DNA from: Nicotiana tabacum
Taxonomy: Eukaryota; Streptophyta; Magnoliopsida; Solanales; Solanaceae
DNA length: 64,000 nucleotides
Assembly: GCF_000715075.1 (NCBI RefSeq)
Contig: NC_134096.1
Coordinates: 63,249,854-63,313,853 of the forward strand
Reading direction: 5' to 3'
Shown here piece by piece: positions 21,271 through 64,000 of the stretch. Position 1 is the stretch's first letter, and every line of letters begins with the position of its first letter. Position numbers and translations under genes: made by a program. Below the pieces are notes generated by a model. That model made no database searches and was not told the origin of the DNA. It saw only the letters and a program-made list of their open reading frames with translations.

Positions 21271-21914
21271 TGTATACGGTTAAAATCGAGCCTACCCAAT
21301 TTTTCTATCTGACTGGGACCAGGGAACTGCATCGAAGGTCGGCCCCGTAGTGGATCAGACCAAGGTACGAGGACAAAGTACCAAGTTTGGGATTCGAGGT
21401 ACCTGTCGAGATCGAGGCTACCAACGATCGAGACCGAATAAGACATGCATCGAGCAAGATCGAAGATAACATAATAACAGAGAGGCGAAATATCCGTGAC
21501 TGGTCGAAGATCATAGCGGAATTCTCGGAACTGATCAAATTAGGAACGGTTAATTAGTTAATCATAAGATTTCCTTCTGTAATTAGAGTTATACCATAAG
21601 TAGAATTCTTCTACTATATAAATGGGAGTATTAACCATTTGTAAGGACACATTGTTCACAAATATCAAAGTTATATATTTCTCTTTCTCGTTTATACTAT
21701 TGTGCATAAGTTTGTTATATTTTGATTGTTCTTACATCAACCAGTTCGAGGACATCCAAACTTGAGGGCTGAGTTCCTTCTAACACTGGTTTGCTTTACT
21801 TTATAATTTATTTCTGTTATTAATCTTCATATTTATCAATTGGTATTAAGTGAAATCACGTGTCCTTAGAACCACATTATAAGTTTAATTGTTATTAAAT
21901 TTTAAGGGTAAACA
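21271..21914 (+). repeat. Tat-type element 2, 5' LTR
   Basis: Starts TGTATACGGTTAAAA and ends GGGTAAACA. A TATA box TATATAAA lies at 21615-21622, giving an expected transcription start some 30 bp downstream. The sequence is the reverse complement family partner of 7142-7784. Confidence 0.94.
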
Positions 21915-21916
21915 AT

Positions 21917-21934
21917 TTGGCGCCCACCATAGGG
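21917..21934 (+). promoter_or_regulatory. Tat-type element 2 primer-binding site
   Basis: TTGGCGCCCACCATAGGG starts two bases after the 5' LTR. It is the same site as in elements 1 and 3 with one or two changes. Confidence 0.8.
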
Positions 21935-22025
21935 CTAAGGATAATAGTGATTGCTTAATACTAATTCTGATAACACACACTTATTTACACTTGTTTTCGT
22001 AAGAATCTTTATTTTCAGGATAAAT

Positions 22026-23170: not shown

Positions 23171-23786
23171 TTACGAGGGCATCTTCTTCTCCATCGAGGT
23201 CCTCCCCATTCTCGGACCCGCTTTTGCTTCCATCATCATCATCATCGGAAAAGGCCAATGCTCTAGCATCAGCTTCATGCTCTCTAGCCTTTATTATCTC
23301 GTCGGTAAGATCAAAACCTCGAGCGTGGATCTCCTCAAAGGTTTCCCTCCGAGATTGGCATTTGGCGAGTTCAGCAATCCAATGTGCTCGAGTTTAAGCG
23401 GCCTCGGCTGCCTTTATCGCTTGGACTTGAGAGGCTTCAGTATCAGTCTGGTAGGCGGCCACGATCGCCGCTGCCTCGGCCTTTGCCTTTTCGGCTTCAA
23501 ATTTGGCCTTTGTAAGTTCGGAAGCCAACCGAGCCTCGAGCTCCTCTATTTTCTTTGCCTGAGGTGAGCTCTTCTCCTTCGTGCCTCGAAGCTTACTTTC
23601 GAGCGATGACCATTGGGCTTGAGCAACCTTTTTTTTTAGCAAGAAAGCGGTCTATAATTTCTTTCCACCCTAAGGTCGCTGTCTTCATCATGTCGACCTC
23701 CTCGCGGAATTTCTCGATCCGCTCAACCTTCTACTGCAATTGTGAGATTGAAATGTTAGCCACCGTTCTCGAATCGAGCCCATGAG

Positions 23787-28842: not shown

Positions 28843-28861
28843 AAAAAACGAGGGGACTATC
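28843..28861 (+). promoter_or_regulatory. Tat-type element 2 polypurine tract
   Basis: AAAAAACGAGGGGACTATC directly before the 3' LTR, matching the tract of element 1. Confidence 0.75.
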
Positions 28862-29506
28862 AGTATACGGTTAAAATCGAGCCCACCCAATTTTTCTATC
28901 TGACCGGGACCAGGGAGCTGCATCGAAGGTCAGCCCCGTAGTGGATCAGACCAAGGTACGAGGACAAAGTACCAAGTTCGGGATTTGAGGTACCTGTTGA
29001 GATCGAGACCAACAACGATCGAGACCGAATAAGACATGCATCGAGCACGATCGAAAATAACATAATAACGGAAAGGCGAAATATCCGTGACTGGTCGAAG
29101 ATCATGGCGAAAATCTCGGAACGGATCCAATTAGGAACGGTTAATTAGCTAATCATGGGATATCCTTCTGTAATTAGAGTTATACCATAAGTAGAATTCC
29201 TCTACTATATAAAGGGGAGTATTAACCATTTGTAAGGACACATTGTTTACATATATCAAAGTTATATAATTCTCTTTCTCGTTTATACTATTGTTCATTA
29301 GTTTGTTATATTTTGATTGTTCTTACATCAACCAGTTCGAGGGCATCCAAACTTGAGGGCTGAGTTCCATTCTAACACTGGTTTGCTTTACTTTATAGTT
29401 TATTTCTGTTATTAATCTTCATATTTATCAATTGGTATTAAGTGAAATCATGTGTCCTTAGAACCGCATTATAAGTTTAATTGTTATCCAATTTTAAGGG
29501 TAAACA
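28862..29506 (+). repeat. Tat-type element 2, 3' LTR
   Basis: 645 bp. It starts AGTATACGG, where TGTATACGG is expected, and ends TAAACA. TATATAAA is at 29206-29213. The purine tract abuts it on the left. Confidence 0.94.
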
Positions 29507-29730
29507 AATTTTCATATCTTAATCAACTAACTCAAATTAATTTTTACTAAAATGGATTTATTCGAAAAACTCCATGACCTAAAATTTCTTGACTGGCTTG
29601 TGATATTTGAGAAAGATCGACGATTTGTGCAGTTGCTCATGCGTTAAACTCTCTATCTATAGGTCGAGACATTTGACTGGGGCAGAGCGTAAATACCCTA
29701 TTTCGGATCACGTTAGCATTATAATTTAAG

Positions 29731-34605: not shown

Positions 34606-34989
34606 GGGCAAAGGTCCAAATATACCCTTGTACTATACGAAATTGAGTACATTTGCCATTCGTTAATACTTTAGCTCAAATATGCCCTTACCGTCACATA
34701 GTTGGTCCATATATGCCCTTAGAGTTTCACAGTTGGCCCATATATGCCCTTTTCGAAACGGAATTCACTCAAACTAATTAACTCTTTCGTTAATTGTATT
34801 AAAGTGTATTACAAACACTATTTCCTTTTTATTAGTACGTTTTTTTCTTTACCTTTCTCTTTTCTTTCTTCTTTTTTCTTTTCTTCTCTTTTTTTTCCCC
34901 TTTTTTCTTTCTCCCTTATCCGTTTCTTCCATTACTGATGTCTTCTCCATTTTCATCACCAATTTCACTTGACAAAACTCATGAATTCC
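34606..34989 (+). repeat. Left arm of the foldback element
   Basis: Inverted copy of 35372-35764. The two arms share a pyrimidine-rich block and the CTTTTCGAAACGGA word and differ by scattered substitutions and small indels. Confidence 0.9.
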
Positions 34990-35371
34990 AATACTCAAAA
35001 GACCAAAATATTTAAATTGTTTATAGAAAGATAATTTAATGATTAAAAGCCTAGAGTTCAAGTTGTAGTGTTATAAATTTGAGTTGTTAGTCTTTATTCA
35101 GCTGGATATTTTCTATTTTTTTATTAACTATGTAAATTGGGGGTGTACATGGAATGGGTTGGTTCGATTTTTATCAAAATCAAACCAAACCAATTATATC
35201 ATTTTGGATTGTTCGGTTTTGTTGGATTTTCGGATTTTTTGTTACATAAATATTATTTCAATCTTACTTTGTTAAATTTTTTAGAACTAAATATATGTTC
35301 AGTAAAAATTTAAAAAATAAAAACATATGATCTATAAAAATATTCTTATGGGAGAATTTTCTTAGTAATTA

Positions 35372-35764
35372 GAATTTATGAGTTTTGTCAAGTGAAATTG
35401 GTGATGAAAATGGAGAAGACAGCAGTAATGGAGAAAATCGGATAAAGGAGAAAGAAAAAGGAAAGAAAAAGGGAAAAAAAGAGAAGAAAATAAAAAATAA
35501 GAAAGAAAAGAGAAAGGTAAAGAAAAAAAAGTACTAATAAAAAGGAAATAGTGTTTGCAATACACTTTAATACAATTAACGAAAGAGCTAATTGGTTTGG
35601 GTGGATTCCGTTTCGAAAAGGGCATATATGGGCCAACTGTGTAACTTTAAGGGCATATATGGACCAACTATGTGACGGTAAGGGCATATTTGAGCTAAAG
35701 TATTAACGAAGGGTAAATGTGCTCAATTTTGTATAGTATAAGGGCATATTTGGACATTTTTCGC
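35372..35764 (-). repeat. Right arm of the foldback element
   Basis: Inverted copy of 34606-34989. Its outer end reads GTCCAAATATGCCC on the minus strand against GTCCAAATATACCC at the left end. Confidence 0.9.
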
Positions 35765-36603: not shown

Positions 36604-36833
36604 ATGGCAGCTAATGATGTCAACATCACACACAACATTGAGGCGCAAGAGAATCTGCCTCAATATGAGGATTCGATCAGCGACTCCCGCAATGAGGAGG
36701 ACGTAGCAACTCCGAAACATGGGGGTGTTATCCCCGACATGTGCGGGAGACAACTCCTGATGACGCTGAGGACGAGTACGTTGCAAAAACCGTAAGAATC
36801 TTGAGGGAGCAACAAAAGATCATCATGGGCCAT
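36604..36833 (+). pseudogene. Tat-type element 3 gag, first part
   Basis: The start MAANDVNITHNIEAQENLPQ (ATG at 36604) follows the LTR by about 100 bp. A frame shift after about 40 codons leads to VRILREQQKIIMGH in another frame. The reading is then cut by the Athila-like element at its duplicated GCCAT and resumes at 48417. This is the leader or coiled-coil part of gag; the capsid domain lies beyond the insertions. Confidence 0.75.
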
Positions 36834-38369
36834 TGATAAGTGGGGATTTTGGCTACTTATTAGCGCCCTTTAGCTTTCGTTTTAGTTCAACAATGCTTAA
36901 TTTTGTTCCCGAAAACTGATAAAATATGCTTAATTACAGTAATATTGGAAGATGCGCTCCCGAGATGAAATCCAACTCAAGAAGGAGTAATCTAAACTCA
37001 AGGACAAAAACAGGCACAAAAGCTGAGAAGTGCGGACCACAGAATATCATATGCGACCGCAGGTTGTGAAGAATCTTCCATCAGATAATGTTGCAAAGTG
37101 CGGTCCGCACATGAAGTGTGCGGCCACAGAAGCTGGGTCAGAGCAAAAGTTCAGATAACCTGCATCTCAAGTCTACCAAAAGTGCGGACCTTACAATTAT
37201 TGTGCGGCCGCCGAAGAAGAGCAACGCGGCCGCAGTCACATTTGTGCGAACCGTAGAAGAACAGGGTACGACCGCACTTGCAATTGTGCGAACCGAAGAA
37301 AGAGTTCAGTGCGGCCGCAGATCAGAATTATGCGGCCGCAGATTTCCAATCCTGTCAAGCTGAAGAAAAGTGCGAACTACACATAGAATTGTGCGGCCGC
37401 AAAATCTCTGAAGGGCATTTTTGTCCGAAAATTTCAGCCATGTATAAATAGAAGAGTTTCACTTTTTAGGTTAACTTTTGACATCAGCTGCTACAATAGA
37501 CGGTTCCTTTTTACTCTTTTAAATAGTTTTTGCTATTTTGAGCTTTTTGAACATAAAGTTTATCAATTTAATTAGCAATATGGGTTTAATTATCATTTTT
37601 TCTTTATTTTCTTCCAATATAAGCATGAGTAGCAAGATTTTTACTAGGGCTGTGACCCAACCCTAGTGTATAAACTTAATGGGTGTTTGATTTATTGCTT
37701 GTTTATGGTTGTGTGTTTAATATTTAGCCTTGGTTTTGCTTTTGTTTGAAGAATTAATGGTTGCAAACATTAGTTGATGCCTATTTGACTTGGTCTCTAC
37801 TTGAGAAAGAGAGACTTAGTTTAGAAAAACTTGGCTAACAAGAAATTGGGTCAATCGAGAGATTGATAAGCCCAATTAAAGGGTCGAACCTAGAGATAGT
37901 AAAATCCGACTTGAGCTTTTATTCAACCGTTTTGTTCAATACCCATTTGGACTTGAAAAAGCTAAATTGGGAAAAATCACTCTCTGACCGAGAGGTATTG
38001 AGTGGTAATTGAGTGTTGATAGCTATAATACACCCCGACCAATAAAATAAGCTTTAAAGTTTACAACCCATTAAGCAACACACCTAGGTAAAGGTCATAG
38101 CCCTAGGCCGTTTATCTCATTTGAAAAATAACAAAAATAATTTCCTAGTTTCAGTCTTTAAATTACAATCGTAGTAAAATTTAGGTTTTTAAACAACCAA
38201 ACTTTGCGAAAGTGAAAATTTAGATATACAAACTCACACACTAAGATATATACTACTAACTCCCATTAATATAGCTCCCTACGGAATTCGACCCCGACTC
38301 TTGTTGGATATTACTATTTCATCGACCGTTTTCATAACCTCGAATAGAGGAGTGAACTTGTCGAGATCA
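36834..38369 (+). repeat. Athila-like 5' LTR
   Basis: 1536 bp, TGATAAGTGGGG to CGAGATCA. The TATA box TATAAATA is at 37443-37450, preceded by an array of TGCGGNCCGCA-type dyads (about 37028-37420). It is visibly diverged from the 3' LTR, more in the first third than in the rest. Confidence 0.94.
37028..37420. repeat. TGCGGNCCGCA dyad array, Athila-like 5' LTR
   Basis: About 13 words such as TGCGGTCCGCA, TGCGGCCGCA, TGCGACCGCA and decayed relatives, in pairs joined by (A/T)-rich ATTGTG or CATGAAGTG linkers. They lie just upstream of the TATA box at 37443. The matching array in the 3' LTR is at 47068-47455. Confidence 0.88.
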
Positions 38370-38374
38370 ATTTT

Positions 38375-38392
38375 TGGCGCCATTGCCGAGGA
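38375..38392 (+). promoter_or_regulatory. Athila-like primer-binding site
   Basis: TGGCGCCATTGCCGAGGA, five bases after the 5' LTR, close to the tRNA-Asp-type site TGGCGCCGTTGCCGGGGA used by Athila elements (from memory). Confidence 0.8.
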
Positions 38393-38412
38393 GCTAAAAA
38401 CAGGGTGCAATC

Positions 38413-39838
38413 ATGGCAAACAATGATCTTAGAAACATAGTCATGGGGATATGGATGTTGAGGATGATCAAATGGATGAGGTCCCTCTTGAACCTCAGGC
38501 CAATAGACGAGGCCGACCACCTCAAGACAATGTACCTGCTCTACTCCCACCTCCACCCCGAGCAGATCCACACCGGGTGTTGCCGAATGAAGGGTATGCA
38601 AGTGCTATAGTCCCTCCCCGTATTAGGGCGGGCAACTTACAAATAACCAACGTGATGCTCACTTTGATTGAGCAACGAGGGTTCTTTACCGGAGCACCGA
38701 GTCAAAATGCAGATAAACATTTGAAGGGGTTCGTAGATACGTGTTGGGGGAGCAAACAAACAAATATTTCTGATGATGCTTTGAGGCTAAGGCGTTTTCC
38801 CTTCTCTCTACGGGGGAAAGCTTTAGATTGGTTGAAACGTTTTCCAAATCATTCCATTCATACTTGGGATGAACTAGAGGAGAAATTTATCTCTAAGTAC
38901 TTCTCTCCCGGGCACATGGCTATTCTTCGGGATGAAATTCTAGCATTCAAGCAAGAGCCCAATGAACCACTACACGAGATATGGGAAAGATATAGAACAA
39001 TGGTGAAAGAGTGCCAAAACAATGATATGACGGAGAACATGATTCAATAAACTTTCTATCGGGGGATCAATACAACCAACCAATGTGTAGTGAATCAACT
39101 TGCCGGTGGGAACTTCATGACTACGCCTTATGCGGAGGCATGTGATATCTTGGATGAGATGGCGGATACTTCTTCGGCGTGGAAATCTCGAGCTAATGTT
39201 CCACAAGGTGACACCAATGTGATTCACCTTCACAAAGAGTTGCATGATCATGGACAAGCCATAGCCGAGTTGACTACCACCATGAACCAATTGACAAAGG
39301 CTCAACTTCAACAAGTGCAAAACCCGAGGTAATTCAATGCAATGGAGTGAGTAAATATAATGGTGAACAAGCGAAGAACAAGAAGTCCACAAGTGCAACA
39401 AAGAGTGGATAATTTTGTGCAAGATGATAGTGGATTTGCTCAAGATGAATCTTACAATGACCAAGAAGAGGAGGTCCAATATGTGAACAATTTTCAAGGA
39501 AAAAGAAACAACTTCCAAGGCCCTAGTCAACAACAATGGAGAACTTCAAACAATCAAGGCAATTGGAATTCTCAAAATCAAGGTAATTGGAATGGTGGAA
39601 ACAATTAAGGTAATTGGAGTGGAATCAATAACCAAGGAAATTGGCATAACAATAATAACCAAGGCAATTGGGGAGGCAACAACCAAGGCGGGTGGAACAA
39701 CAATCAAGGAAATCAGGGGTCGGATTTTCAAAGGCCCCCAATATCTCAACAACCGAGCAACCCACCCCTTATCCTTCCCATGGTCCTAGTTCTTCCAACA
39801 ATGAAATGGTCCGTATTGAGAACATGTTCAAATAAATT
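38413..39838 (+). pseudogene. Athila-like gag
   Basis: The start MANNDLRNIVMG (38413) shifts frame within about 15 codons into a long open piece to 39050. This piece carries the retrotransposon gag domain: DDALRLRRFPFSLRGKALDW, WDELEEKFISKYFSP and LHEIWERYRTMVKECQNNDM. A TAA at 39048-39050 and further stops (39330-39332, 39606-39608) break it. The region after the gag domain has a coiled-coil stretch (ELTTTMNQLTKAQLQQVQNP) and, at about 39540-39720, an asparagine/glycine-rich block of NQGNW repeats in place of an evident zinc knuckle. Confidence 0.85.
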
Positions 39839-41332
39839 ATGGAGAAGAATGCCAATTCCGATTCCCAACTTGCTTCACACAATACATCGATCCGCAATCT
39901 AGAGGTGCAAATGGGTCAAATCTCTCAAGCTCTAAATTATCGTCCTAAGGGGGCACTACCAAGTGACACGGTGGTGAACCCGAATGGTGGGAACAATACG
40001 GGGAATGCCATGGCCGTTACTACAAGAAATGGAAGAGGTGGGAATGTACCCACCTCAAGTCAAAGGCAACTTATGGATGATGAGCAAGTGGTAGAAAAAG
40101 AGAAGATCCTAACCAATGTAGTGCAAGCTAATAATGAAGTGCGAATTGATATTGATGACACATCGAACGAGACTCAAGAGAAAGTGAACCTATCTAGGGA
40201 GCATGCGATTGACATACCGGAACCGGTAGTGCAAAAGGCTAAGGCATCATTGCCTAAGCCACCTCCTCCATATCCTCAAAGGCTTGCCAAGAAAAATGGC
40301 GAGAATCAATTTAAAAATTTCATTGATATGATGAAGAGTCTCTCGATAAATATGCCATTACTTGAAGACTTGGAGCAAATGCCCGGATATGCAAAGTTTA
40401 TGAAGAACTTGGTGACAAAGAAGCGATTGATGAATTTTGAAACTATCAAAGTCACTCACCAAGTGAGTGCAATTGTGCATTTGATTTCTCCTAAATTGGA
40501 AGATCCCGATACTTTCACAATCTCTTGCACCATTGGAAGTGCCGAGTTTGCCAAAGCTCTTTGTGATCTTGGGGCAAGTATCAATTTGATGCCCTATTCG
40601 GTTTTTAAGAAATTAGGAATTGGGAAACCAAGACCCACATCTATGATATTATAAATGGCCGATCGTACAATGAAAAGACTGTTGGGGGTGATTGAGGATG
40701 TATTGGTTCGAGTTGACAAGTTCATTCTCCCGGCGGATTTTATTATTCTTGATTGTGGAATGGACTATGAGGTCCCGATTATTCTTGATAGACCTTTCCT
40801 TGCTACAGGGAAGGCGCTTGTTGATGTGGAATCCGGAGAACTCACTTTTCGGGTGGGTGATGAAAAGGTAGTGTTCCACGTGTGCAAAACTATGAGGCTA
40901 CCGAATAGTAATGAAGTGTGTTCGTTCGTAGACTTGGTGAGCGGTGTGCTTATTGATGATACAAGTGCCACGATTAATGTGGGTGACATGTTGGAGACCG
41001 TCTTGCTAAATTTTGATGATTATGAGATGGATGGCTTCATGGAATGTGTTAATTCTTTGCAAGGAATGAGGTCGTACAACTATGCACCCCGGAAGCTTTC
41101 CTTGGATCTTGAGAATAGGAAAACTCCTCCTACTAAGCCTTCAATTAAAGAGCCTCTTATCTTGGAGTTGAATCCATTGCCTCTACATCTCAGGTATGAA
41201 TTCCTTTGCCCTTGTTCTACTTTACCGGTTGTTCTTTCCTCTAGTTTAACTAACGTGCAGGTTAACTCTACATTGGCTGTGCTCCACAAGAGGAAGAAAG
41301 CTATTGGGTGGACTTTGGTGGATATTCGGTGA
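39839..41332 (+). pseudogene. Athila-like protease region
   Basis: Two long open pieces (39839-40654 and 40655-41332) lie in the same frame, separated by one TAA at 40652-40654. The first holds PPPPYPQRLAKKNGENQFKN and the protease core FAKALCDLGASINLMPYSVF. The second holds the flap and downstream strands (LPADFIILDCGMDYEVPII, LDRPFLATGKALVDVESGEL). Asp, Gly and Ala of the active-site word are kept as D-L-G-A, the form usual in this lineage. The last part leads into RT (LHKRKKAIGWTLVDIR). Confidence 0.83.
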
Positions 41333-41389
41333 ATAATCCCCTCATTTTGCATGCACAAGATTAACTTGGAGGAAGATTCCTAACCCTCC

Positions 41390-42923
41390 ATAGAACATCA
41401 AAGGATACTCAATGAAGCCATGCAAGACGTGGTCAAAAAGGAGATCATCAATTGGTTAGATGTCGGGGTGGTATACCCCATTTCCGACAGTTCGTGGCCT
41501 TCTCTGGTGCAATGTGTCCCTAAGAAGGGAGGCATAACTGTGGTCACCAATGATAAGAATGAGTTGATTCCAACACGAACAATGACCGGGTGGAGAGTGT
41601 GTATGGACTATCGGAAGCTAAACAAAGTGACAAGGAAAGACCATTTCCCACTCCCCTTTCTTAACCAAATTCTTGATAGGTTGGCTGGCCGTGCTTTCTA
41701 TTACTTTCTAGATGGATCTTCGGGCTACAACCAAATCCTTATTGCCCCGGAAGATCAAGAGAAAATAACTTTCACTTGTCCCTATAGCACTTTTGCTTTC
41801 AAGCGGATGCCATTTGGCTTATGCAATGCATCGACAACTTTTCAACGGTGTATGATGGTGATCTTTACGGATATGGCCGAGGACTACCTTGAAGTCTTCA
41901 TGGATGACTTTTCGGTAGTCGGGGATTCCTTTGATGATTACTTGACAAATTTGGATAAAGTATTGGCAAGGTGTGAAGAAACGAACTTGGTGTTGAATTG
42001 GGAGAAATGTCATTTCATGGTCGAGGAGGGAATTTTGCTTGGCCACATAATTTCAAAGAAGGGCATTGAGGTTGACAAGGTGAAGATAGAGGTGATTTCT
42101 AAACTTCCACCTCTAACATCAGTGAAAGGCGTGAGAAGTTTCTTGGGTCACGCGGGTTTCTACCGGCGCTTCATAAAGGATTTTTCCAAAGTGGTGAACC
42201 CCTTGTGCAAGATTTTTGAGAAAGATGCTAAGTTTCACTTCAATGATGATTGCATAAGATCCTTTGAATTGCTAAAGTTTAAATGGACAATAACTCCCAT
42301 TATCATCCGCTCCTAATTGGAGTATTCATTTTGAGCTCATGTGCGATGCTAGTGATGTAGTGGTTGGAGCAGTTTTGGGGCAACGTATCAACAAGATTTT
42401 TCATCTGATCTACTATGATAGTAAGACCAGGAATGATGCCCAAGTAAATTACACCGTTACTGAAAAAGAGCTCTTTGCCATTGTGTTTGCAATTGAGAAG
42501 TTCTGCCCATACTTGATGGGTGCAAAGGTTATTGTTCATACGGATCATGCGGCACTTCGCTATCTTATGAGCAAGAGAGATTCAAAAGCTAGGTTGATAA
42601 GATGGGTGCTATTGTTGCAAGAGTTTGATATTGACATTCAATATCGGAAAGGGAGTAAAAATCAAGTGACAGACCACTTGTCTCGTTTGGAGGAGGAGGG
42701 GAGGCCGCATGATGGCCTTCAAATCAATGACTCCTTCCCCGATGAGAAACTCTTGGCCATTTCAATAAAGGAGGTGCCATGGTTCGCCGGTCTAGAAAAC
42801 TTCCTTGTATGTGGAATCATCCCGGATGAGTTCTCTTCAAATCAAGGAAGAAGCTCAAATGGGATTGTCAAGATTATTATTGGGACGAGCCTTACGTCTT
42901 TCAGATTTGCATGGATGGGGTAA
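41390..42923 (+). pseudogene. Athila-like RT and RNase H
   Basis: RT is nearly intact over 41420-42316: WRVCMDYRKLNKVTRKDHFP, FYYFLDGSSGYNQILIAPED, FAFKRMPFGLCNASTTFQRC, catalytic FMDDFSVVG (near 41895-41925) and GHIISKKGIEVDKVK. A frame change near 42316 leads to RNase H at 42339-42700 ([55 protein letters not shown]). The tail [17 protein letters not shown] and [11 protein letters not shown] is conserved. The domain would copy the element RNA into DNA and remove the RNA strand. There is no second RNase H, in contrast to the Tat elements. Confidence 0.88.
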
Positions 42924-44104
42924 TTAGAATATGTGTACCGGATAAAGAGCAAAATATTATTCTTGAGGCTTGCCATTATTCGCCTTATGGTGGTCACCAT
43001 GGCGGAGCAAGAATGACGGCTAAAGTGCTAAGTTGTGATTTGTATTGGACCACTCTCTACAAAGATGCAAGTGATATGGTGAAAAGATGTGATGAATGCA
43101 AACGGGCTGGTGGAATCTCGAAGAAGAATAAAATGCCTCTCACTACCATTTTGAAGATCTATATCTTTGACGTGTGGGGTATTGACTTCATAGGTTCTTT
43201 TGTGAGTTCTTGTGGAAACACCTACATCTTGATCGTGGTTGATTATGTGTCTAATTAGTTTGAGGTCGTTGCTCTACCCAACAATTAAGTGATGAGTGTG
43301 GTGGCATTCTTGAAGAAGAATATTTTCACAAGATTTGGTACTCCGCGAGCTATCATAAGCGATGTGGAGTCATATTTTTGCAACAAGGTGTTTGACATTT
43401 TGCTTATTAAGTATGGAGTCACTCATAAAGTTACGACTCCCTACCATCCTCAAGCTAGCGGTCACGTGGAAGTCTCCAACCGGGAGATAAAGAGTATCTT
43501 GTCAAAAACTGTGAATGCTAACCGAACGGATTGGTCAAAGAAGCTTGATAATGCACTATGGGCCTATCAGACTGCTTTCAAAACTCCTATTGGGATGTCT
43601 CCATACTAGTTGGTATTTGGCAAAGCTTGTCATTTTTCGATGGAACTTGAGCACAAAGCCATGTGGGCTTTAAAGAAGCTGAATCTTGATTGGGATGCAG
43701 CCGCTAACTTGCGGGTTGCACATCTGAATGAATTGGGTGAATTCCGGTATCATACATATGAAAGTTCATCCTTGTACAAAGAGATAATGAAGTAACTTCA
43801 TGACAAATATATCCGAAATAAGGAGTTCAAGGTGGGCGATCTTGTTTTGCTGTTCAACTCACGATTGAAGATATTTCCCGGAAAGCTGACACCTTTGAAA
43901 TTGTGGGTGTGACACCTTTGAAAGTTCACCTTTGAAATCCCGATATGAAAGTTCACCTTTGAAATTGTGGGTGTGACACCTTTTGGTGCATTGGACTTGA
44001 AGAACAAAAATGATTAGGTATTCCGAGTCAATGGTCACCGAGTGAAGCATTATTTGGGACAAGATGATGATGGACACGTGGTGGCAGTTATTCATTTGAA
44101 GTGA
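42900..44104 (+). pseudogene. Athila-like integrase
   Basis: A zinc-finger region with ACHYSPYGGHHGGARM and KRCDECKRAG is followed by the catalytic core IFDVWGIDFIGSFVSS (first Asp), a second Asp region near 43340-43380 ([10 protein letters not shown], where DxGSHF-like words are usual) and [16 protein letters not shown] with the Glu. The core continues through [20 protein letters not shown], then after a TAG at 43607-43609 LVFGKACHFSMELEHKAMWA and NELGEFRYHTYESS. The C-terminal part near 43830-44104 ends with QDDDGHVVAVIHLK. It is disrupted by an in-frame TAG at 43256-43258, a TAA at about 43286, and a small tandem duplication at 43887-43985. Confidence 0.85.
43887..43985 (+). repeat. Local duplication in Athila-like integrase C-terminus
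   Basis: The words ACACCTTTGAAATTGTGGGTG and AAAGTTCACCTTTGAAA (each partly) recur so that GTTCACC and GTGTGACACCTTT each appear twice within 100 bp. The duplication is not found in an ordinary integrase end and shifts the reading. Confidence 0.75.
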
Positions 44105-44289
44105 TGGTAATCTGCGTCATGCCGCGACGTTAAATCAGGCGCTTCTTGTGAGGCAACCCATGTTTTCTTTTTCTTTTTCTTTTCTTCTTTTGTAGATAGG
44201 TCTTATTTTGTGCTAACTGGATTTGAAGTGTGTTGCAAGAATGAGTGTGCTTTACACGAACTGTGCTTAGAAAATTGGCTAAGTGTGGA

Positions 44290-44510
44290 AAAAAGTGCGG
44301 ACCGCACAATTTTGAATGCTACAACAGAAGGCAACTACAACCACACAATTCTTGTGCGAACCGCACAAATTGAGATGAAAATTGCAAACTCTCTGAAGTT
44401 TGGTCTGTCACAGATATGGCCAATCTGCGGCCGCACATTGAATTATGCGGTCCGCAGTCAAAATCTACGGTTGCACCATAAATTGTGCGGACCGCAGGTC
44501 AACAAAAACT
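44290..44510. repeat. TGCGGNCCGCA dyad array, Athila-like 3' region, first
   Basis: Words TGCGGACCGCAC, TGCGAACCGCAC, TGCGGCCGCAC, TGCGGTCCGCAG and TGCGGACCGCAG in 220 bp, the same motif as in the LTR though this is not LTR sequence. Confidence 0.85.
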
Positions 44511-44984
44511 ATTGAGCCTCGAGGTAACACAGTGCTGACCACAGAAGGAAGTTTGCATCCGTACTCCTCCTTTGTTTCCCAAGTCTGCCTGCAAGTATAA
44601 ATAGTAGCCTAAGGCTACTATACTAAGTTTTTTACCTCTCTAAGCACTCTAAATTCTAAAACTTGGAAATCATTTGTTCAATCATCCACCACACTCCATA
44701 CACATTTGTGTTCACTTAGTTGCAGTCCTTCATATCTGGTATGTCTAATTTCTCATAGAATTTTTCAACTTTTAGTTAAATTTATAATTTGTTAGATAGT
44801 TTTAGGCCATTTGTCAATAGATTTCAATTTTACTACCATGTGGGGTTTAATCTGTGTTGAGTCAACTGCTAATTTCTTTATGGGTACTGGGTAAATTGAT
44901 TTGCATGCTTAATTGTTAATATCATGTCAATTGTTGAAGAATTTTGTAAATCCTAGGAGTCTGATCGACTTTGGTTTGAAACCT

Positions 44985-45335
44985 GCGGTCGCACTTGAAA
45001 TTGTGTAGACCGCAAAAATTCCACCGCGGCTGCACAAGAAATTGTGCGGTCCGCAAAAGTAGAGAATATGGTTCTTTGATCAAGCATGATTCTGCGGCTG
45101 CACTTGAAATTGTGCAGACCGTAGAAATTTCACCGCGGCTACAGAAAAGTGTGTGCGGCCGCAGATCAGACCGATCTCTGTCATCAGAGAGTTGGAACTT
45201 TTTGGAAATCTAATGTGCAGCCGCAATGAGAAATGTACGGACCGCATTTCTATTCTGCTGTCACGCACAAATTTATATGGACCATAGTTCCATTTCTGCG
45301 ACCGTACTTGTAATTGTGCGGACCACACTTCCCTA
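44985..45335. repeat. TGCGGNCCGCA dyad array, Athila-like 3' region, second
   Basis: Pairs such as GCGGTCGCAC and GTAGACCGCAA, GCGGCTGCAC and GTGCGGTCCGCAA alternate with CTTGAAATTGTG or AAGAAATTGTG linkers, up to CGGACCACA near 45325. Confidence 0.85.
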
Positions 45336-45416
45336 CCCTGCACTCATGTTCTACACTGTGATATACTGTATGTGTGCAATTGAATTACAACTGACTTCTG
45401 CTTTTGCTTGTTATGG

Positions 45417-45990
45417 AAAATGGTTAGATCTCGTAGCCGCGGTGACACTTCAAAGGGAAGGGGTGAACCTTCCAGAGGTCGAGAAAAAAGAACTTTACCC
45501 CTCACCCTCCAAATGATAATCACCAAGAAAGCTACAGTCGGCCAAGGAAGACAGCCCGAGACCTCCAAATCTAGTTCATATGCCCCATATCGGGAAGCAT
45601 CGGAGGGCGACTCAGTGCAAGAGCAGCCTGCAGTCCAATCATAGCCACATCAGCCACAGGGAAGGTATTAACTCCGGGTCGAGCCTTCTTCCTCACATAG
45701 CACTTCCGAGGGTTCGGAGAGTGCAAGTCAGGCTTTAGAGTCCTCTTCGACACTTGTCCCTGAGTCACCAGTAGCTACAGTTGACGATATTCTGGACGAT
45801 GGCCGAGGGGGTGATACTACAATTGCCGACCTTGAGAGGTCGGAGAATAAAGAGGTCTGGAAGGACCATTTTGTGAGTCTAGCTACCTTCACCAGCTTCC
45901 TTCGCTGGTGGCCGGTGAGATCGCTCACTCTTGAGCGATAGTTCCAGCTTTAAGATCTTGACAAGTACAATCCAGAAACAAGCCTTTATC
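45417..45990 (+). pseudogene. Athila-like second ORF remnant
   Basis: A serine/arginine/glycine-rich N-terminus (MVRSRSRGDTSKGRGEPSRG) runs to a stop at 45642-45644 (frame open from 45408). The later VPESPVATVDDILDDG and SENKEVWKDHFVSLATF stretches lie in other frames. Its position between integrase and the 3' LTR suits the extra ORF of Athila elements. No signal peptide, fusion region or transmembrane segment is visible, so an envelope function is not supported. Confidence 0.5.
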
Positions 45991-46859
45991 CATTTTGTCG
46001 TGACCCTCTCTTGGCACCCGAACTTTCCTTAACACTCTTGTGAAACAATTGGCTAAAAACGTAAGTTTGGGGGAGAGATGAGGAGTTTGAAAAAGGTATC
46101 AAGGCACAAAATATAAAAGAAATAATGATAAGAAAAGGCAAGAAAAAGAAATAAAAAAAAGAAAAATGTAAAAAGAAAGTGAATAAGTTGAAGAGTTGAA
46201 GGGATTCAAAGAAAAGTAATGATGCAAAGCATGGAGAAATCAAAGAAGGAGAAAATGAATATCATGACCAAGAAAGAGTAATGTTAAGTCTCTCTAGTTC
46301 TCCTAAGGAAAAGAAAATGCCTCAAAGAGTTGGCAAAGCATGAGCCTAGAAAAGAAAATGGAGTGCTTAAGGAAAGATGAACCCGTTCTATCATAGCATT
46401 TCCAACCTTAGTCCAAAAGCCTTCATTGCATTCCAAAAAAGTCCTACGTGATTTCAAGCCGAGTGAGCTTACATTAGTGGTGATTTAAATAAGGGGTAAG
46501 CCTATTGTACTTAAAGCCGTACTTGCGACATTCTTTTGAGAGAGATGAGTGAACCTTTCACAAATCTTTAGATTGAGTGCTATATGTTTGAGTGAGATAG
46601 GAAAACGGAAAGTAGAGGAGGAGGAGTTTGGGATCCACAATGACCTACATGAAAGAGAGAGCTTCCTTGATAAACAAAGTCACCTCTTGATGCTCAAGTG
46701 CTAACTTGTTTAACTTGTTGCCTTGTTAATAATTCATAAGTGGTGTGGATAATTATTGGTCCCAATTGATGTGTGATTGATTCACTGTAGATTAGCTGGA
46801 ATGGCTTCTAGCTTGTGGAGGTGGGAACTACTTTATTTGCTTGAGGACAAGCAAAAGCT

Positions 46860-46874
46860 TAAGTTTGGAGGAGT
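46860..46874 (+). promoter_or_regulatory. Athila-like polypurine tract
   Basis: Purine-rich AAGTTTGGAGGAGT immediately before the 3' LTR. A similar AAGTTTGGGGGAGAGATG lies earlier at 46063-46080 and might be a second, internal tract. Confidence 0.65.
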
Positions 46875-48411
46875 TGATAAGTGGGTATTTTGGCTACTTA
46901 TTAGCGCCCTTTAGATTTCGTTTTAGTCCAAAAGCGCTTAATTGTATTCCCGATAACTGATGAAATGTGCTTAATTGCAAGAATATTGGAAGATGAGCTC
47001 CCAAGATGAAATCCAACTCAAGAAGTAGTAATCTGAACTCAAGAACAAAAACAGGTACAAAAGCTTAGAAGTGTGGTCCGCATAATATCATCTGCGGCCG
47101 CAGGTTGTGAAAAATCTTCTATCAGAGAATGTTGCAAAGTGCGGTCCACACATGAAGTGTGCAGCCGGAGAAGCTCGGTTAGAGTAAAAGTTCAGAGAAC
47201 CTGCATCTCAAGTCCACCAAAAGTGCGGACCGCATAATTATTGTGCGGCCTCCGAAGAAGAGTTGTGCTGCTACAGTCACATTTGTGCGGACCACAGAAG
47301 AACAAGGTGCGACCGCACTTACAATTGTGCAGACCGCAGAAAGCGTGCAGTGTGGTTGCAGATCAAAATTATGCGGCCTTAGATTTCCAATCCTGTCAAG
47401 CTGAAGAAAAGTGAGGACCGCACATGGAATTGTGTGGCCGCAGAACCTCCGAAAGGGCATTTTTGTTCAAAAATTCCAGCCCTGTATAAATAGAAGAGTT
47501 TAACTTTTTTAGGTTAATTTTTGACATCAGCTGCTACAGTAGACGGTTCCTTTTACTCTTTTTAGTAGATTTGCTATTTTGAGCATTTTGAACATAGAGT
47601 TTGTCAATTTAATTAGCAATATGGATTTAATTATCATTTCTTCTTCTTTTTCTTCCAATTTAAGCATGAGTAGCTAGATTTTTACTAGGTTTGTGACCCA
47701 ACCCTAGTGTGTAAAATTAATGGGTGTTTGATTTATTGCTTGTTTATGGTTGGGTGTTTAATATTTAGCCTTGTTCTTGCTTTTATTTGAAGAATTAATG
47801 GTTGCAAAGATTAGTTGATGCCTAATTAACTTGGTCTCTACTTTAGAAAGAGAGACTTAGTCTAGGAAATCTTGGCTAACATGAAATTGGGTCAAACGAG
47901 AGATTGATAAGCCCAATTAAAGGGTTGAACCTAGAGATAGTAAAACCCGACTTTAGCTTTTATTCAACCATTTTGTTCAATACCCATTTGGACTTGAGAA
48001 AGCTAAATTGGGAAAAATCACTCTTTGACCGAGAGGTATTGAGTGGTAACTGAGTGTTGATAGCTATAATACACCCCGACCAATAAAATAAGCTTTAAAG
48101 TTTACAACCCATTAGGCAACACACCTAGGTAAAGGTCATAGCCCTAGGCCGTTTATCTCATTTGAAAAACAACAAAAATAATTTCCTAGTTTCAATCTTT
48201 AAATTGCAATCGTAGTGAAATTTAGGTTTTTAAACAACCAAACTTTGCGGAAGTGAAACTTTAGATATACAAACTCACACACTAAGATATATACTACTAA
48301 CTCCTATTCATATAGCTCCCTGTGGAATTCGACCCCGACTCTTGTTGGGTATTACTATTGCATCGACTGTTTTCATAACCTCGAATCGAGGAGTGAACTT
48401 GGACGAGATCA
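46875..48411 (+). repeat. Athila-like 3' LTR
   Basis: 1537 bp, TGATAAGTGGG to CGAGATCA, with TATAAATA at 47485-47492 and the dyad array at about 47068-47455. It is preceded by a purine tract (AAGTTTGGAGGAGT). Confidence 0.94.
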
Positions 48412-56690: not shown

Positions 56691-59600
56691 TGTATTGATA
56701 GTATTGTCGCACCCCTTTTTCTCTCAAAATCGGGTTTCGACATGTGACAACTCTTTTAAAGGGGTGTTAAAAGAGAAGAGTCTCCACCTAACGAGTTGAG
56801 GTGCGTTAGGGAACCTAATTGCGAATAACTCTGTTTTGACTAGTCTATGTCACCAAAGATCGGGTAAGGGCTCAAATTACCTCAAAGAGAAGGTGTTAGA
56901 CACTCTTCGAGGTCCACAACTATGGGTCCCGGCCAAAGTTTACACTATGTGGGATTATCGGATTACAATTATCCTATGTGATCATATAAGTGAGGGAAAC
57001 AAGGAAAATAAAGGCTCTAGTATGGAATAAGTAAGTGTAAAGAAATTTGTATAAGAATTAAACTATATAAATAATCAATACAAGTCTTTGAAGGTTACAG
57101 GATACAACTTGATTGTTCTAAGTTCAAAAGATGGAATACTAACAATAAACATATGAAGAAGGGGGGGGGGGGTCCTAAGTTTTTTAACCTAAAGGATCAC
57201 CCCGTGAAACATAAATAATACTTTGTAACTACTTCAAGATGGGGTGTTACTCATATTATTTAGCGGGCACAGACTATCATCTCCTGCTATCCTATTACTA
57301 TGTTAAAGTTGTTTACCTAAAAGCGCTCTAATTCAATTCTAGGTCGTGTCCTATGTGTGCTTTACCTGTCCCATGCCTATGGTCCAGGAGGATTTGGACC
57401 TACTATTTGGGTGGTTCTAGACCTTACTTAGGGTGCTCAAAATGATAAAACTAGGCGTACATTCGTAACATGTAGGACTTCATATAAAGATAATAAATGG
57501 CTCAAGTTGGCCTCCTTCCAGGCTGAAATACAGACTAAGGCAATTACAAGCCCAATACAAAGTAACCTAGGGATATCCCCAAGCCTTCAATAGCCTTACT
57601 CACAGGACAAACAACAAGCCCAAACCACAGGCTCACAAAACAACTACAGTGCCCCTGAATCCAGTTTCCAAGTCCAGCAACACATATGGCCCCCTTCCAG
57701 CCCCAACTAGATGATTTACTTACCCAAATAGATGCCGAATTTAACCACATGGGTAACTAGCGACCCGTAGAATTAATTAACAACTTAAACACTTGGTTTT
57801 TAAAAAAATCTGTAACTAGCAGCAACTCTAATCAAGGCATATAAGCAAGATCATGCTAAATTGGGAGATATGCAAGACACATATGAAGCAAGTTTATGCT
57901 TATCATCCCAGAAACAGAGTTCAAGAGCAAGATGATTATTTCAATTAAAGTTTCAAAACAAAGCATGGTCCAGAACTGTCCTAAAGAGCTTTGGGCAGGG
58001 CATTTGAACATGAAAATCTAGTAGTGTCATAGACAATAACAAGTGAGATACAGTCTTAACATGAAGGCTTTAACATGAGAGCCTAATGAGAATGTGACAG
58101 CATAACAACATGCTAGTGAGTAGTTTGACAGACATATCACTTAGTTGTACATGAGACCTAGCATGGTGAGCATTGGTCATAGTATAAAGACCCTAAGGAG
58201 CTCATGGTAGGTTAAAGCATATACAGAGCAAGTAGACATCAGGATTCATGCCAGTTGACTATCCATAAAAGAAGAAGCTAAACATTGAAATCTATCCTAG
58301 AAGTCTTAGGCAATGCTAAAGAGCACAAGATTAACAAGTCGAGGAGTACATTCATCAGAACTATAAATAACAGAAAACCATGTTTGGCTGTATATTAAGA
58401 AAAATATTATAACATGGGATTCACATGATTATGGTCAGTCTTTAAAGAAACAATAGATTACACATAAAAGATTCAGCATGAAAAAGTTCATTCAAGCAAG
58501 TTCTGGGAAGGAGATGATCTCATAAGAGTTTCAATATAAGAACCCAGGTCAAAGTATGAGAAGGGTCTCATAACAAACAATAGGTGATCAGAATAGTCAA
58601 AATCATTAAAATTGCACACATATAATGGTCATGCCTCGAAGCTTAGAGTTCAAACAGGTTCAGATGCTAGAAAAACACAAAGGCATAGAATAATTCCATA
58701 GCAAATAAGAATACCTGCAGAGGCAAACAATAACATATTGATTCACAAAGGCCTAAATGACATGAGCACACAAAGCATAAACACCAGCAAGAGAAAAAAA
58801 TGAAATTGCGAGAGTCTCAATACTTACCAATTTGCAGAACTAAAGAGCAAATAAGGTAGAAAACTAAATGTCAGCAATAGCTTGCTTATCAGTAGCAATG
58901 AGAGAACGACAGAAACCCCAAAAATTCTCAGTGTGTCAGAGTTCTCAATGGTGTCAAGTGAACCTCGGGCAATGCTCACACCGAGAGAGGTTAAACAGTC
59001 GAATTTTGGTGGCCTTGGCTTTCAGCCAGCCAAAATCAAAGTCTCAGAATAATAGAGAATGAGTGAGAGTGAGAGGATAGTGGTAGCAACAATAATCAAG
59101 TGATAGTCGTTAAAACCTAGAAGGGTAACAAGGAAGGGGAGTTTATATAGTAGTAGAAATTGAACGAACAAACATAGAAAAGAATCAATTATGCACAAAT
59201 AAGGAAATAAAATACCACATGCAATCAATAATGGTGCCGATAAAGATAGAAATCGATAATCAAACCCTAATTAGGGTTCAATATTTGAAAATCGGTCTGC
59301 TGGTGTGAGAAATCAACCCTTTTTCGTGTATATGGACGAGATATTATCCAAGTCTTAGAGATTGAGGTTGAACGAGCTCGATTATGAGAGATGGTACTTG
59401 CAAAGTTTAGGTAAGTACTAAGTAACACTATTGTTGCATAGGTACTGATGCAGTAATACAAATAAGAAAAGTGAATCATAGAGAGATTCCACAGTCTAGC
59501 CGGAATGGGAGGATGATTAGAGATCAGGCAGCTAGGGTTTAGTGTGAGTGTGAAGAGATAAGAGTAACAGAGGCGGTTGGGCAGGGGGATTAGTCTCTAG

Positions 59601-60689
59601 GGTTTGGGGAGAAGGTTATAAAGAAAGGGGAAGGTTTATTATGGGTCGTTGATCATTTAAGATAAACGGGCACGATCGAATAGAAAACGGGGCGGGTTAA
59701 GTGTAACGGGTCGCGGCCGAATTTTAAAAGGGGTCGTTTGGTTGGCCTGCCGAAGGGTAAAATGGAATGGGCCAGGTGCCTTGGGCCTGATTTTGGTCCG
59801 AAATTAGCCTTGTAATGGCTATAAATTAAATATGTAAAATTTATTTAAAATAATTTACAAAAAGTGATTAATAAATAATAAAAATATTACTTATGCAGTA
59901 AAATGATTGAAAATAATAGCTTAACATTATAAAAATATAAAAATGCTATTTTTGCATAGTTAATTTAATAAATGTAATTATGTATAGAATATAAGTTATT
60001 ATTGCAAAACTTAAATAACTCAAAAATACAAATGTAATTATATGAAATGAATTAAAAATGTTATAAAACATAAAATATGGGTTTAAATAATAAATTTGGA
60101 TGATTAAATCATCACGAAATAATTTTAAAGGATAATTAATAAATATTTGAACAATTTAAATGCAAGAATGAGGATGCAATAGTTGTCGGGTAAAGAAAAT
60201 GATGACCAATTTTGTCCGAAATGAATGAGGATGATGTGTTTTTGCATCGTAGAACCCTAGTCCTTGAGTGTCCTGTATATCTCGGGATTTATGAGAATCA
60301 GGTCGTGTGTAGTTCTAGATCCAACACCGAACGAAACCGATGGAGTTGTTATAAGAGGTTATATGTTTCGAGGAAAGATCTTTTGTATATGATGTTGTCA
60401 TGGGTAACAGATAATTTGGGTGGATCTATAAATGCAAATTTGAATGTTATGGATATTCAAGATAAACGTTTGGGCAGTTACGGGACGAAGAGTAAACAAT
60501 TGCTGATTATTGGTTACGTTTGAGATAATCAAAGGATGTAAACATTGTGAACGGAAACCAGAGCGAGAATTGCTCCCGTTTGTAGAACGGTTACTTCCCG
60601 AGTTACCATCAAAACTTAAAACACGATGCACGCGAATACATATAGGTATTGCAGAAATTTAGACTTGATGCGAATTCCCTTCAAACCAT

Positions 60690-60930
60690 GAGAGTTGTCT
60701 TTGGACGATGAGGATGATGTCCTTAGACAATGACGTCCTGGGCCATGAAGCATGTGACAAGGGATACGCAGGCCATGAAATGGTGTCCTCGGTCCATAAG
60801 GATGGTGCCTATGGATTATGATGCCTTTGAATACTGATATACAGTTTCGAGAGATCTTTAGGCCATGGCATGATATCTTCGGGCTATGAGGATGATGTCT
60901 TCAGACTATGACGCCTTCAAACAATGTAGC
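60690..60930. repeat. Degenerate tandem repeat before the hairpin array
   Basis: About eight poorly conserved units of the type ATGAGGATGATGTC(C/T)T(C/T)(A/G)G(A/G)C, with ATGACG(T/C)C(T)T variants, spaced roughly 25-35 bp. It leads into the well-kept array at 61017. Confidence 0.65.
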
Positions 60931-61016: not shown

Positions 61017-61705
61017 AAACAAGGCAACGCTTAACCTTGTATATGATGAGGGTAATGCTTAGACCTATGTAGAGGAAGGCAACGTTTAGCCCTATGGAGG
61101 CAATGCTTAGCCTCATGCAAAGGAATGTAGTGCTTAGCCTTACGCGATAATGGAGGCAATGCTTAGCCTCATGCAAAGTAATTGAGACAGTTCTTAGTCT
61201 CATGCTAGAAAAGACATCGTTTAGTCTTATGCAGTAATGGAGGCAATTCTTAGCCTCATACAATGTAATGGAGACAGTGCTTAGTCTCATACAAAAGAAG
61301 GCAGCGTTTAGCCTTATGCAGTAATGGAGGCAATGCTTAGCCTCATGTAATGTAATGGAGATAGTGCTTAGTCTCATGCAAGGAAAGGCAATATTTAGCC
61401 TTATGCAGTATGGAGGCAATGCTTAGCCTCATGCAATGTAATGGAGACAGTGCTTAGTCTCATACACAGGAAGGCAACGTTTAGCCTTATGCAGTGATGG
61501 AGGCAATGCTTAGCCTCATGCAATGTAATGGAGACAATGCTTAGTCTCATGCAAGGGAAGGCAGCGTTTAGCCTTATGCAGTAATGGAGGTAATTCTTAG
61601 CCTCATGCAAAGTAATGAGGGCAGTGCTTAGCCCTATGCAGAGAAATGAGGGCAATGCTTAGCTCTGTGTAGTAATGAGGGCAATGCTTAACCCGATGCA
61701 AATAA
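61017..61705. repeat. 29-bp hairpin monomers in an 87-bp higher-order repeat
   Basis: About 24 monomers. Those starting GGAGG at 61152, 61239, 61326, 61412, 61499 and 61586 are 87, 87, 86, 87 and 87 bp apart, that is three 29-bp monomers per higher-order unit. Each monomer has a stem, the loop (A/G)(A/G)(T/C)(G/T)(C/T)TTA and the opposite stem: GAGGC/GCCTC, GAGAC/GTCTC, AAGGC/GCCTT, and also AAGAC/GTCTT and AGGGC/GCCCT. The tail is usually ATGCA plus a short spacer. Because 87 is a multiple of three, minus-strand frames stay open through it (60901-61419, 61401-61655), giving repetitive translations. Confidence 0.93.
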
Positions 61706-62157
61706 AAGCGACGATCAAATATGAAGAAGCAAAGTGGTTCTTAGCTTGACGCTTTTGTGCTCGACGACTTCTGTCAGTGTGAAGATAGTGGTCTAGTTGC
61801 ATATATTTGTGGACATGCTTGCTATGTCTATCATGCCTGCATCGAAAGAAAAATCGTGAGTTTTTGGGGAAGGTTGGTTCATACCTTTGATTCCTTATTT
61901 CGCCTTTGCTCCTTGTCTAGACACCTTGTTTGAGTCACCCTAGGTAACATCCGGCTACAACTGAAATAATTTTTTTGAAAATATGCATTTGCGATAAATT
62001 ATTTGTAAGAAATACAGTTGTTCAAAATATGTGATGATTCATAAAACAAATAATTTTGTTAAATCGGAGATTGTGACACGTTTCGAGACACTACAATCTT
62101 CTAAACTCGGAATTTTGAGGACCCTCTTCAAAATTCTACTCCAGTTTAAATACGTAC

Positions 62158-62960
62158 CACTACAAAAAAAAGTGGCTATTTGTGGGGGTTAAATTTGCAA
62201 ATTGCGGGAGTCAGCAACCCCCGCAAAGTATTGTTGCGGCATTTTTCAAAATCCCTGCAATATCGGTCACCACAATCAATTTGCGGGGGGTTTTTTCATG
62301 ACCACTGGTAACATTAGCGGCAGCTGATTTAGCGGAAATTTAACCCCCATATTTTCAATATTTAATCAACTTAAAACTTCTTTGAAAAAAATATTGCGGC
62401 GGTTAGAACCCCCATAAATTAAGCAATTTGCAGGGGTTTAAACCTATGCAATTTGCATAGCATATTCTCTTTACTTAATTAAAGAAAGTTATAATAACCT
62501 ATTATTTTTTTCAAAATAATATGATTTTTTGGTGTAATTGTGGCTCCCAAAATTTTCTATAGAATATTTTAAATATATTAAAATTATGAAGCATGAACAT
62601 AATATTGAAATTGCGTATCAAAATTAGTAATATAAAAATAACATTATATCATAAATAACGTTAACATGAAGTATTATCTTTAGTCTCAAAACTAGCTTTA
62701 AACACCACATCTACTTCACCTATTAAGCGCAAAACATCTGCTCCAGCCATTAAGTGAAAAACATCTACTCCAATCATTACACCCAAAATATTTACTTCAA
62801 CCATTCAATTGTTGTCACTAGAATCAATACCATAAGATGATCTTCTAAAGCCCGTGGGTGAAATGGATCTTCTAGCTGTATCATTTGCCTACAAAAAAAA
62901 TATAATTAATAGAAGATTATAATGAATTTACAATACATTGATTAATAATAATACTAAATG
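62158..62960. mobile_element. CACTA-type transposon terminus
   Basis: CACTACAAAAAAAAGTGG at 62158 is the hallmark end of CACTA (En/Spm) elements. Subterminal repeats follow to about 62460, in both orientations: TTGTGGGGGTT, TTGCGGGAG, AACCCCCGCAA, TTGCGGGGGG, TTGCGGCGGTT, GAACCCCCAT and TTTGCAGGGGTT. These are of the kind bound by the TNPA-type protein. A possible last exon on the minus strand (62889 to the stop at 62818, after a TTTTTTTTGTAG acceptor) would encode ANDTARRSISPTGF and more. The other end was not found, so the right limit is arbitrary. Confidence 0.7.
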
Positions 62961-63601
62961 TCATTGATGTTTAAGCAGGAACTTCAAGCATAGAGCAAAA
63001 ACCAAAACAAGAAGGATGAAGTAAAATGGAGAATATTGGTGAGAAAGTGAGATCCAAGGGCACTTCTAGGTAAGTTATATACACACAAAAAGATTCAATT
63101 TTTAATGCATATACACTATAGGTAGCGGCATTGCTTAATATGAAAAGCCTATGACTCTGTCTAAATATTACTCTAGTCTATGAAGCGTCTAATGAAGTAC
63201 TGAAAACACTGACTGTCTGAAAATACTGAAGATTGTAAGGTAATGATAATTGCCCGAAAGAACTGAGGATCACCAAATAGCTGGTATGAGAATCCTAGTG
63301 CTCTGAATCGTCAACCTGAAAATCATTACCACCATCGTGAGATGCAGGCCCCGAGCAAAAGAGACGTCAGTACATTTGAATTGTACTGGTATGTAAAGCA
63401 TTTTAAAGAAAGAATTATAAATGCTGAAATTGAAACTAAGCTGATAACTGAGAATTGATACTTGATAACTGAAATGATAACTAATGAAACTAAAACTAAA
63501 ATAATAACTGATAACTGGAATGATAACTGATAACTGAAACAAAGGAAGTAAGGACATGAATACTTCCTCTTCTGAATGATGAACAACCTGCTTATCTGAA
63601 C
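62961..63601. other. Repeat-derived DNA, no gene seen
   Basis: From about 63240 the sequence is of a type common in solanaceous LTRs (GACGTCAGTACATTTGAAT, GTACTGGTATGTAAAGCA), followed by irregular GATAACTGA repeats (63430-63540). No coding capacity can be supported. Confidence 0.5.
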
Positions 63602-63800
63602 TATGGCCTCGGGCCCAATATATATGTGCACAAGCTACGGCCTCAGGCCCAAGTATACGTATACATAACTACGGCCTCAGGCCCAAAAATGCATAGAGAA
63701 TCAACTACAGCCTCAGGCCCAGACATGCATAAAGTACAAACTACGGCCTCAGGCCCACATATGCATAAAGCATATAAACTACGGCCTCAGGCCCAAATAC
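63602..63800. repeat. Tandem array with GGCCTCAGGCC palindrome
   Basis: Six units start at about 63602, 63635, 63669, 63705, 63741 and 63779, spacing 33-38 bp. Each has CTACGGCCTCAGGCCCA or a close variant (GGCCTCGGGCC in the first, CAGCCTCAGGCC in the fourth), then a variable ATGCATA-like spacer. The core GGCCT-C-AGGCC is an interrupted palindrome. Confidence 0.93.
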
Positions 63801-64000
63801 AGGTGTTCAACATTCAGGGATTTAAATTCTGGAACTGAAAATCATACTGCAATATGTAATGCTGAAATACTGAATCATATCGAGTTACATGATACTGGAA
63901 TATTGAATAGGACTAGACTGAGACATGTATTCTTGAACTGATTATGAAAACTGAAACTTCAAATGTTTATGACATTCTGAGTAATCTAGACTGAGACTCA
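63801..64000. other. Repeat-derived DNA at the right edge
   Basis: TACTGAA/CTGAGAC-rich sequence without a gene, of the same LTR-like character as 63240-63600. It runs off the window. Confidence 0.45.

Follow-up and report, generated by a model that had tools for sequence, protein, structure and literature searches.

Does a tandem array of hairpin-shaped monomers, whose two arms change in step from one monomer to the next, record pressure on a folded structure, or the shape of the few monomers from which it grew? The question is raised by an array near the right end of the window (the whole stretch of 64,000 nucleotides of Nicotiana tabacum DNA analysed here), for which an earlier note, made from the sequence alone, had suggested either selection for RNA or DNA hairpins or a copying mechanism that rewrites one arm from the other.

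Architecture of the array

The sense strand of the element that hosts the array is the minus strand, as judged from the pol and LTR features of related copies. The parts of the array and a second repeat block nearby are:

61017 to 61705, minus strand: hairpin tandem array of 24 monomers, with 5-bp arms around an 8-nt loop ending in CTTA or TTTA
61094 to 61645, minus strand: portion built of the 87-bp A-B-C unit (arms GAGGC/GCCTC, GAGAC/GTCTC and AAGGC/GCCTT), delimited by Tandem Repeats Finder and slot spacing
61019 to 61040, minus strand: edge monomer E, placed by alignment of the large loci; the window copy deviates at a single arm base
61211 to 61228, minus strand: the sole AAGAC/GTCTT stem, which belongs to a C-type monomer with two changes in the window copy
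61618 to 61695, minus strand: terminal D-type monomers (AGGGC/GCCCT)
60698 to 60913, minus strand: second, degenerate repeat block of the same element, with repeats of about 22 and 88 bp

The hairpin array with matching arms is confirmed as first observed: the centres of its 24 monomers span 61030 to 61687, 16 of the 24 stems have perfect 5-bp arms and 19 are free of mismatches, and 109 of the 120 arm pairs are Watson-Crick and 5 are G-T. The five mismatched stems are those of four of the first five monomers and of the last. When the 3' arms were shuffled among the 24 window monomers (20,000 trials), perfect stems averaged 4.1 with a maximum of 12, a comparison that is blind to ancestry and alone is no proof of constraint.

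Some details of the original description need amending. The 87-bp period holds, and is reported by Tandem Repeats Finder at 61094 to 61645, but the monomers are not uniformly 29 bp long: their spacing cycles through 31, 27 and 29 bp, which together give the unit. The fixed order of three types is strictly A-B-C in the middle of the array and not elsewhere. The G-T wobbles that had been noted are present on the plus strand only; on the sense strand the same positions are A-C mismatches. AAGAC/GTCTT, which had been listed among the stem types, is present but occurs once in the window and once among 1014 monomers from 40 arrays. At the array edges, 35 of the 40 arrays end, as far as monomers were assigned, with a D, and the E stem, ACAAGGC/GCCTTGT, is a perfect 7-bp stem in four large loci (L015, L016, L023 and L024). 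Consistent arm matching was not found by eye in the second repeat block at 60698 to 60913. Pair 5, adjacent to the loop, has in its 5'-arm C a hot spot for C-to-T and C-to-A changes in the four monomer types.

The host element

Relatives were gathered with the array as query, and the best 40 of 3828 first-look candidates, the window included, were used; these are the nearest to the query rather than a random selection. For each of the 20 large loci, matches from the remaining 19 cover the array region, and the right flank of the window array is matched in 37 of 39 fetched copies (L042 is doubtful, and L043 and L044 did not align). Between 18 and 38 monomers were scored per locus across the 40 arrays, a range that includes a few stray hits in the large loci, and copies repeatedly show the arrangement D C (A B C)n ... 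D, spaced 31/27/29.

On the pol side of these copies, Pfam domains were identified in six of eight open reading frames, all opposite to the plus strand of the window: a reverse transcriptase (RVT_1) in L011, RVT_3 in L011 and L022, and integrase domains (Integrase_H2C2, rve) in L012, L013 and L028; scores below the curated cut-offs are those of RT_RNaseH_2 in L011 and of rve in L012 and L028. The remaining two of the eight, one from L021 and one from L022, had no Pfam match. Toward the array, the order of domains in the frames of L011, L012, L013, L022 and L028 is reverse transcriptase, RNase H, integrase. Among solved structures, the L011 frame is similar to RNases HI, several from archaea (3hst, 4e19, 2ehg and 3aly among six sequences), and we take a second, archaeal-type RNase H before the integrase to be a marker of the Tat lineage. 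On the other side of the array, a polypurine tract followed by the LTR start TGTTGATACC lies to the left on the minus strand in 15 of the 20 large loci. With pol on the minus strand to its right and the polypurine tract and LTR start to its left, the array is, by its sequence context, the tandem-repeat block between the integrase and the 3' LTR of a Tat-type Ty3/gypsy element in minus orientation; it is not a stand-alone minisatellite. The window copy is incomplete around the array, as the following features indicate:

61706 to 62157, minus strand: family sequence from the array toward the integrase side; homology to relatives ends at 62157
60168 to 60173, minus strand: deletion junction, where relatives are about 120-170 bp longer and hold the polypurine tract and the LTR start TGTTGATACC
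57534 to 60168, minus strand: LTR-side sequence patchily common to relatives; the extent of the LTR is approximate

The window copy thus lacks the tract and the LTR start, at 60168/60173. In L009, the LTR start occurs once, at 9088, without the tract and at the outer end of a second LTR-side copy, which fits a 5' LTR. This second copy is a 703-bp direct repeat (89.9%), the sole one among seven loci compared with themselves; no LTR-side direct repeat was found in the six others, nor in L048 and L049, and the fetched copies did not yield a complete element with two LTRs. Two other placements were considered and rejected: that the array belongs to the plus-strand Ty3 pol at 53-56.7 kb of the window, since other copies have an opposite-strand pol adjoining the array, and that it lies inside an LTR, since L048 and L049 contain no second copy. 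A single 20-base pattern found no relatives in IMG/VR or GTDB contigs (0 and 0).

The array belongs to a known kind, the 3' repeats of Tat-type elements: Tat, Ogre and Retand elements are described as carrying tandem arrays at the corresponding place (PMC7004042, PMC11963269, PMC3305785). A description of this particular array was not found in the titles or abstract openings of the open-licence papers searched.

Covariation across copies and its explanation

The many copies allow the arms to be compared beyond one locus. A monomer profile scored on the non-arm columns only gave 1014 monomers from the 40 arrays, a set in which a few stray hits outside arrays (in the large loci) were left; the same profile gave 2 hits in 198 kb of shuffled sequence. 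Perfect stems are found in 487 of the 1014 monomers, and 480 of these 487 fall into four arm types: GAGGC (143), GAGAC (143), AAGGC (139) and AGGGC (55). Mutual information, with average-product correction, is highest at pairs 4, 1 and 2, which are exactly the pairs that separate the types. Shuffling the 3' arms within loci lowers the number of perfect stems to 146, whereas 508.8 +- 7.5 are obtained when the shuffling is confined to types; the types thus explain all 487 perfect stems observed. Within the four types there is no residual covariation (of 4475 pairs, 3979 are Watson-Crick, where shuffling gives 3981.1 +- 6.2), and compensated doubles make up 6 of the 106 monomers with two changes, where single-change rates predict 7.1. 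Covariation stronger than duplication of ancestral monomers would leave, on which the earlier note had rested its case, is therefore not seen, the four founder types holding nearly all perfect stems.

As the type assignment used the arms themselves, and a paired change can convert one type into another, the monomers were also sorted by spacing alone. Over all slots, 81 compensated pairs were then counted where 18.7 were expected, most of them in A and B slots at pairs 1, 2 and 4. We read this excess as D monomers and slot errors at the array edges; the C slots had no excess at pairs 1-4. Trimming every array by three monomers at its start and four at its end left 647: 329 with the founder arms of their slot, 307 imperfect and 11 otherwise perfect, five of the 11 being D monomers. 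The expectation that arms stay paired in other copies fails on these 307. In slot-sorted monomers, the arms are about as conserved as the loop and flanks. A hold-out set, obtained with a different query and comprising 379 monomers of 19 further arrays (the nearest matches among 3437 first-look candidates, again not a random sample), gave 5 compensated doubles among 49 against 3.6 expected, and 1500 paired positions within types against 1500.1 +- 4.4 after shuffling. With both sets combined, pair 5 has 13 compensated changes against 9.1 expected (p 0.11) and pair 3 has 0 against 1.65. The plus-strand wobbles were rejected as evidence for selection on RNA: among single transitions, pairs 1-4 contribute 58 G-T and 75 A-C pairs; pair 5, the hot C-to-T site that is also prone to C-to-A, contributes 71 and 12.

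We consider it highly probable (about 0.86), from comparison of sequences, that the array is the 3' tandem-repeat block of an old, abundant, dispersed and now dead Tat-type Ty3/gypsy retrotransposon, in which arm covariation was inherited from founder monomers and then lost through unpaired decay. In this reading the ancestral element had a few hairpin-shaped founders, namely A, B, C and D and the edge monomer E, as the types common to copies show. Three of them were amplified as the 87-bp A-B-C unit, flanked by D monomers, probably by slippage or strand transfer during reverse transcription, a route taken from the literature. The block dispersed along with the element, and each copy then decayed base by base irrespective of pairing, as the within-type tests show; the arm covariation of the single window is the inherited difference among founders. 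Little points to a working structure today. A covarying hairpin array at one locus can be inherited founder structure and not functional RNA, and many genome copies are what separates the two.

Three other accounts of the present-day arrays have to be weighed against this. One holds that the hairpins are now selected, as structured element RNA or as DNA cruciforms, with stems kept by compensatory changes; we regard it as highly improbable and largely refuted. In its favour are the 16 of 24 perfect stems in the window and the folding results: the whole window array has a z of -3.77 on the sense strand and -1.62 on the plus strand (20 shuffles each), and the sense strand is the more stable one in 31 of the 40 arrays. 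Over 400-nt pieces of the 40 arrays, mean fold z is -1.00 for the sense strand and -0.21 for the other; flanks of 20 loci, folded as controls, range from -0.56 to +0.30. The sense strand of the arrays is thus slightly better than shuffled, and on that strand the window copy has the lowest value of all 40 (-3.2). Against selection stand the compensated doubles, which are not in excess in the main set or the hold-out, the equality of within-type pairing with its shuffled value, the counts at pairs 3 and 5, the even conservation of arms, loop and flanks, and the lack of any Rfam match in the window at gathering scores. The same counts oppose the proposal that template switching at quasi-palindromes rewrites an arm from its partner in present copies, which we find very unlikely, although the mechanism is published (PMC8794818, PMC3820800) and one case resembles it. 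Contig C14 carries a recent duplication of 9.3 kb, L015 and L018, whose two copies agree at 99.04% over 9.28 kb. Of the 17 sites in 1 kb at which they differ, two pair with each other in the E stem, ACAAGGC/GCCTTGT versus ACAAGGA/TCCTTGT, a double transversion. Coincidence would produce this in about 1% for one locus pair, by a rough estimate for a case noticed after looking. It is a single, post hoc case at the hot pair 5, compensated changes overall are without excess in the main, hold-out and combined sets, and AAGAC/GTCTT with a C-type loop matches the whole genome 23 times against 44 for the reversed control. As a rule, then, there is no sign of the selection or arm rewriting in present copies that had been suggested.

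That the block is instead a coding repeat, read on the sense strand of the element, is barely credible. An open frame of 408 codons does run through the array in L011, and one of 173 codons covers part of the window array, but the stop-free 87-bp unit yields long open frames unaided, the whole-array frame occurs only in L011 among eight large loci inspected, a Pfam domain is absent and no relative at E 0.001 or better was found among 7993 proteins scored.

Founders, related elements and neighbouring sequence

Inheritance from founders leaves the question of why the founders themselves are paired. Every arm difference among them is a paired change: A and B are separated by pair 4, A and C by pair 1, and C and D by pair 2 (alternatively, D is separated from A by pairs 1 and 2). 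If the changes were placed at random, such a pattern would have a probability of 0.0006 on a star tree and 0.0014 on a chain, in simple, post hoc models. For this founder question only, we think chance possible but somewhat doubtful: the signal is carried by only three to four paired events and the models were chosen after seeing the data, yet both probabilities are low, and in four large loci the edge monomer E, too, forms a longer stem with matching arms. Since chance explains the paired differences poorly, a structural or copying cause may have acted when the array arose, so that this part of the earlier suggestion survives for the birth of the array and falls for an ongoing process. Founder pairing perhaps stems from hairpin constraint or template switching during element activity, and we treat the founder-level pattern as a modest point. 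A fuller scenario, which we consider unlikely, is that in the active element the 3' hairpin stems mattered (e.g. for pausing, strand transfer or packaging), or that template switching at the reverse-transcription step rewrote the arms; in either case founders would have diverged by paired changes only, and the hairpins would then have driven their own amplification into the array. Template switching has been proposed as a source of paired stem changes (PMC8794818), and its one-step paired changes would resemble both the founder differences and the change in L018; unlike hairpin maintenance of that kind, the copies studied here have no excess of paired changes.

Comparison with known elements places these founders among their relatives. 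Lathyrus Ogre/Tat elements have 3' tandem repeats (PMC7004042; Macas et al. 2009 as cited there), for which the passages of PMC7004042 that describe them leave hairpin-shaped monomers unmentioned, whereas here each founder is a short dyad. In soybean Gmr9/GmOgre, five interleaved minisatellite families lie between the coding region and the LTR, so that this abundant element, like the present array, interleaves several minisatellite types; the text contains no words beginning hairpin, palindrom, stem or inverted (PMC3305785). Retand elements share with this element a long region from pol to the 3' LTR, and roughly half of them carry tandem arrays; an antisense TRP28 open reading frame is common in them, and the text lacks the words hairpin, Solanaceae, Solanum and Nicotiana (PMC11963269). 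How the tandem repeats of Tat elements originate is, according to PMC7004042, yet to be determined. If the founder signal is real, arrays such as this one could test hairpins or template switching as creators of Tat tandem repeats.

The right side of the window copy is cut by a further sequence:

62158 to 64000, strand not assigned: putative CACTA-type insertion, starting CACTACAAAAA, which cuts the element

This sequence, which begins CACTACAAAAAAAAGTGGC at 62158, interrupts the retrotransposon exactly where the homology of relatives stops (62157). It is probably a CACTA-type insertion, its start being what we take for a CACTA transposon end; the other end was not found by two motif searches covering 7.8 kb past the window. 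Within the inserted sequence lies a further tandem array (63599-63801) with a 36-bp period and GGCC-TCA-GGCC dyads. Elsewhere in the window, an LTR pair (7136-7782 and 17803-18449, 91.7%) surrounds a minus-strand pol with RVT_3, i.e. what appears from its sequence to be a second Tat-like element at 7136-18449. On its 3' side it has a 100-bp repeat of 1.9 copies with a hairpin (11007-11193), and the RNA fold of 10990-11210 has a z of -3.1. An inverted relative of this 7-18 kb element, 87-88% over long matches and with LTR-like ends of its own (94%), occupies 21268-29510. A nested LTR element with LTRs of about 1.5 kb (90.9%) and a plus-strand reverse transcriptase at 41.4-42.3 kb lies at 36833-48411, and an inverted repeat with arms of about 390 bp (91%) lies at 34610-35759.
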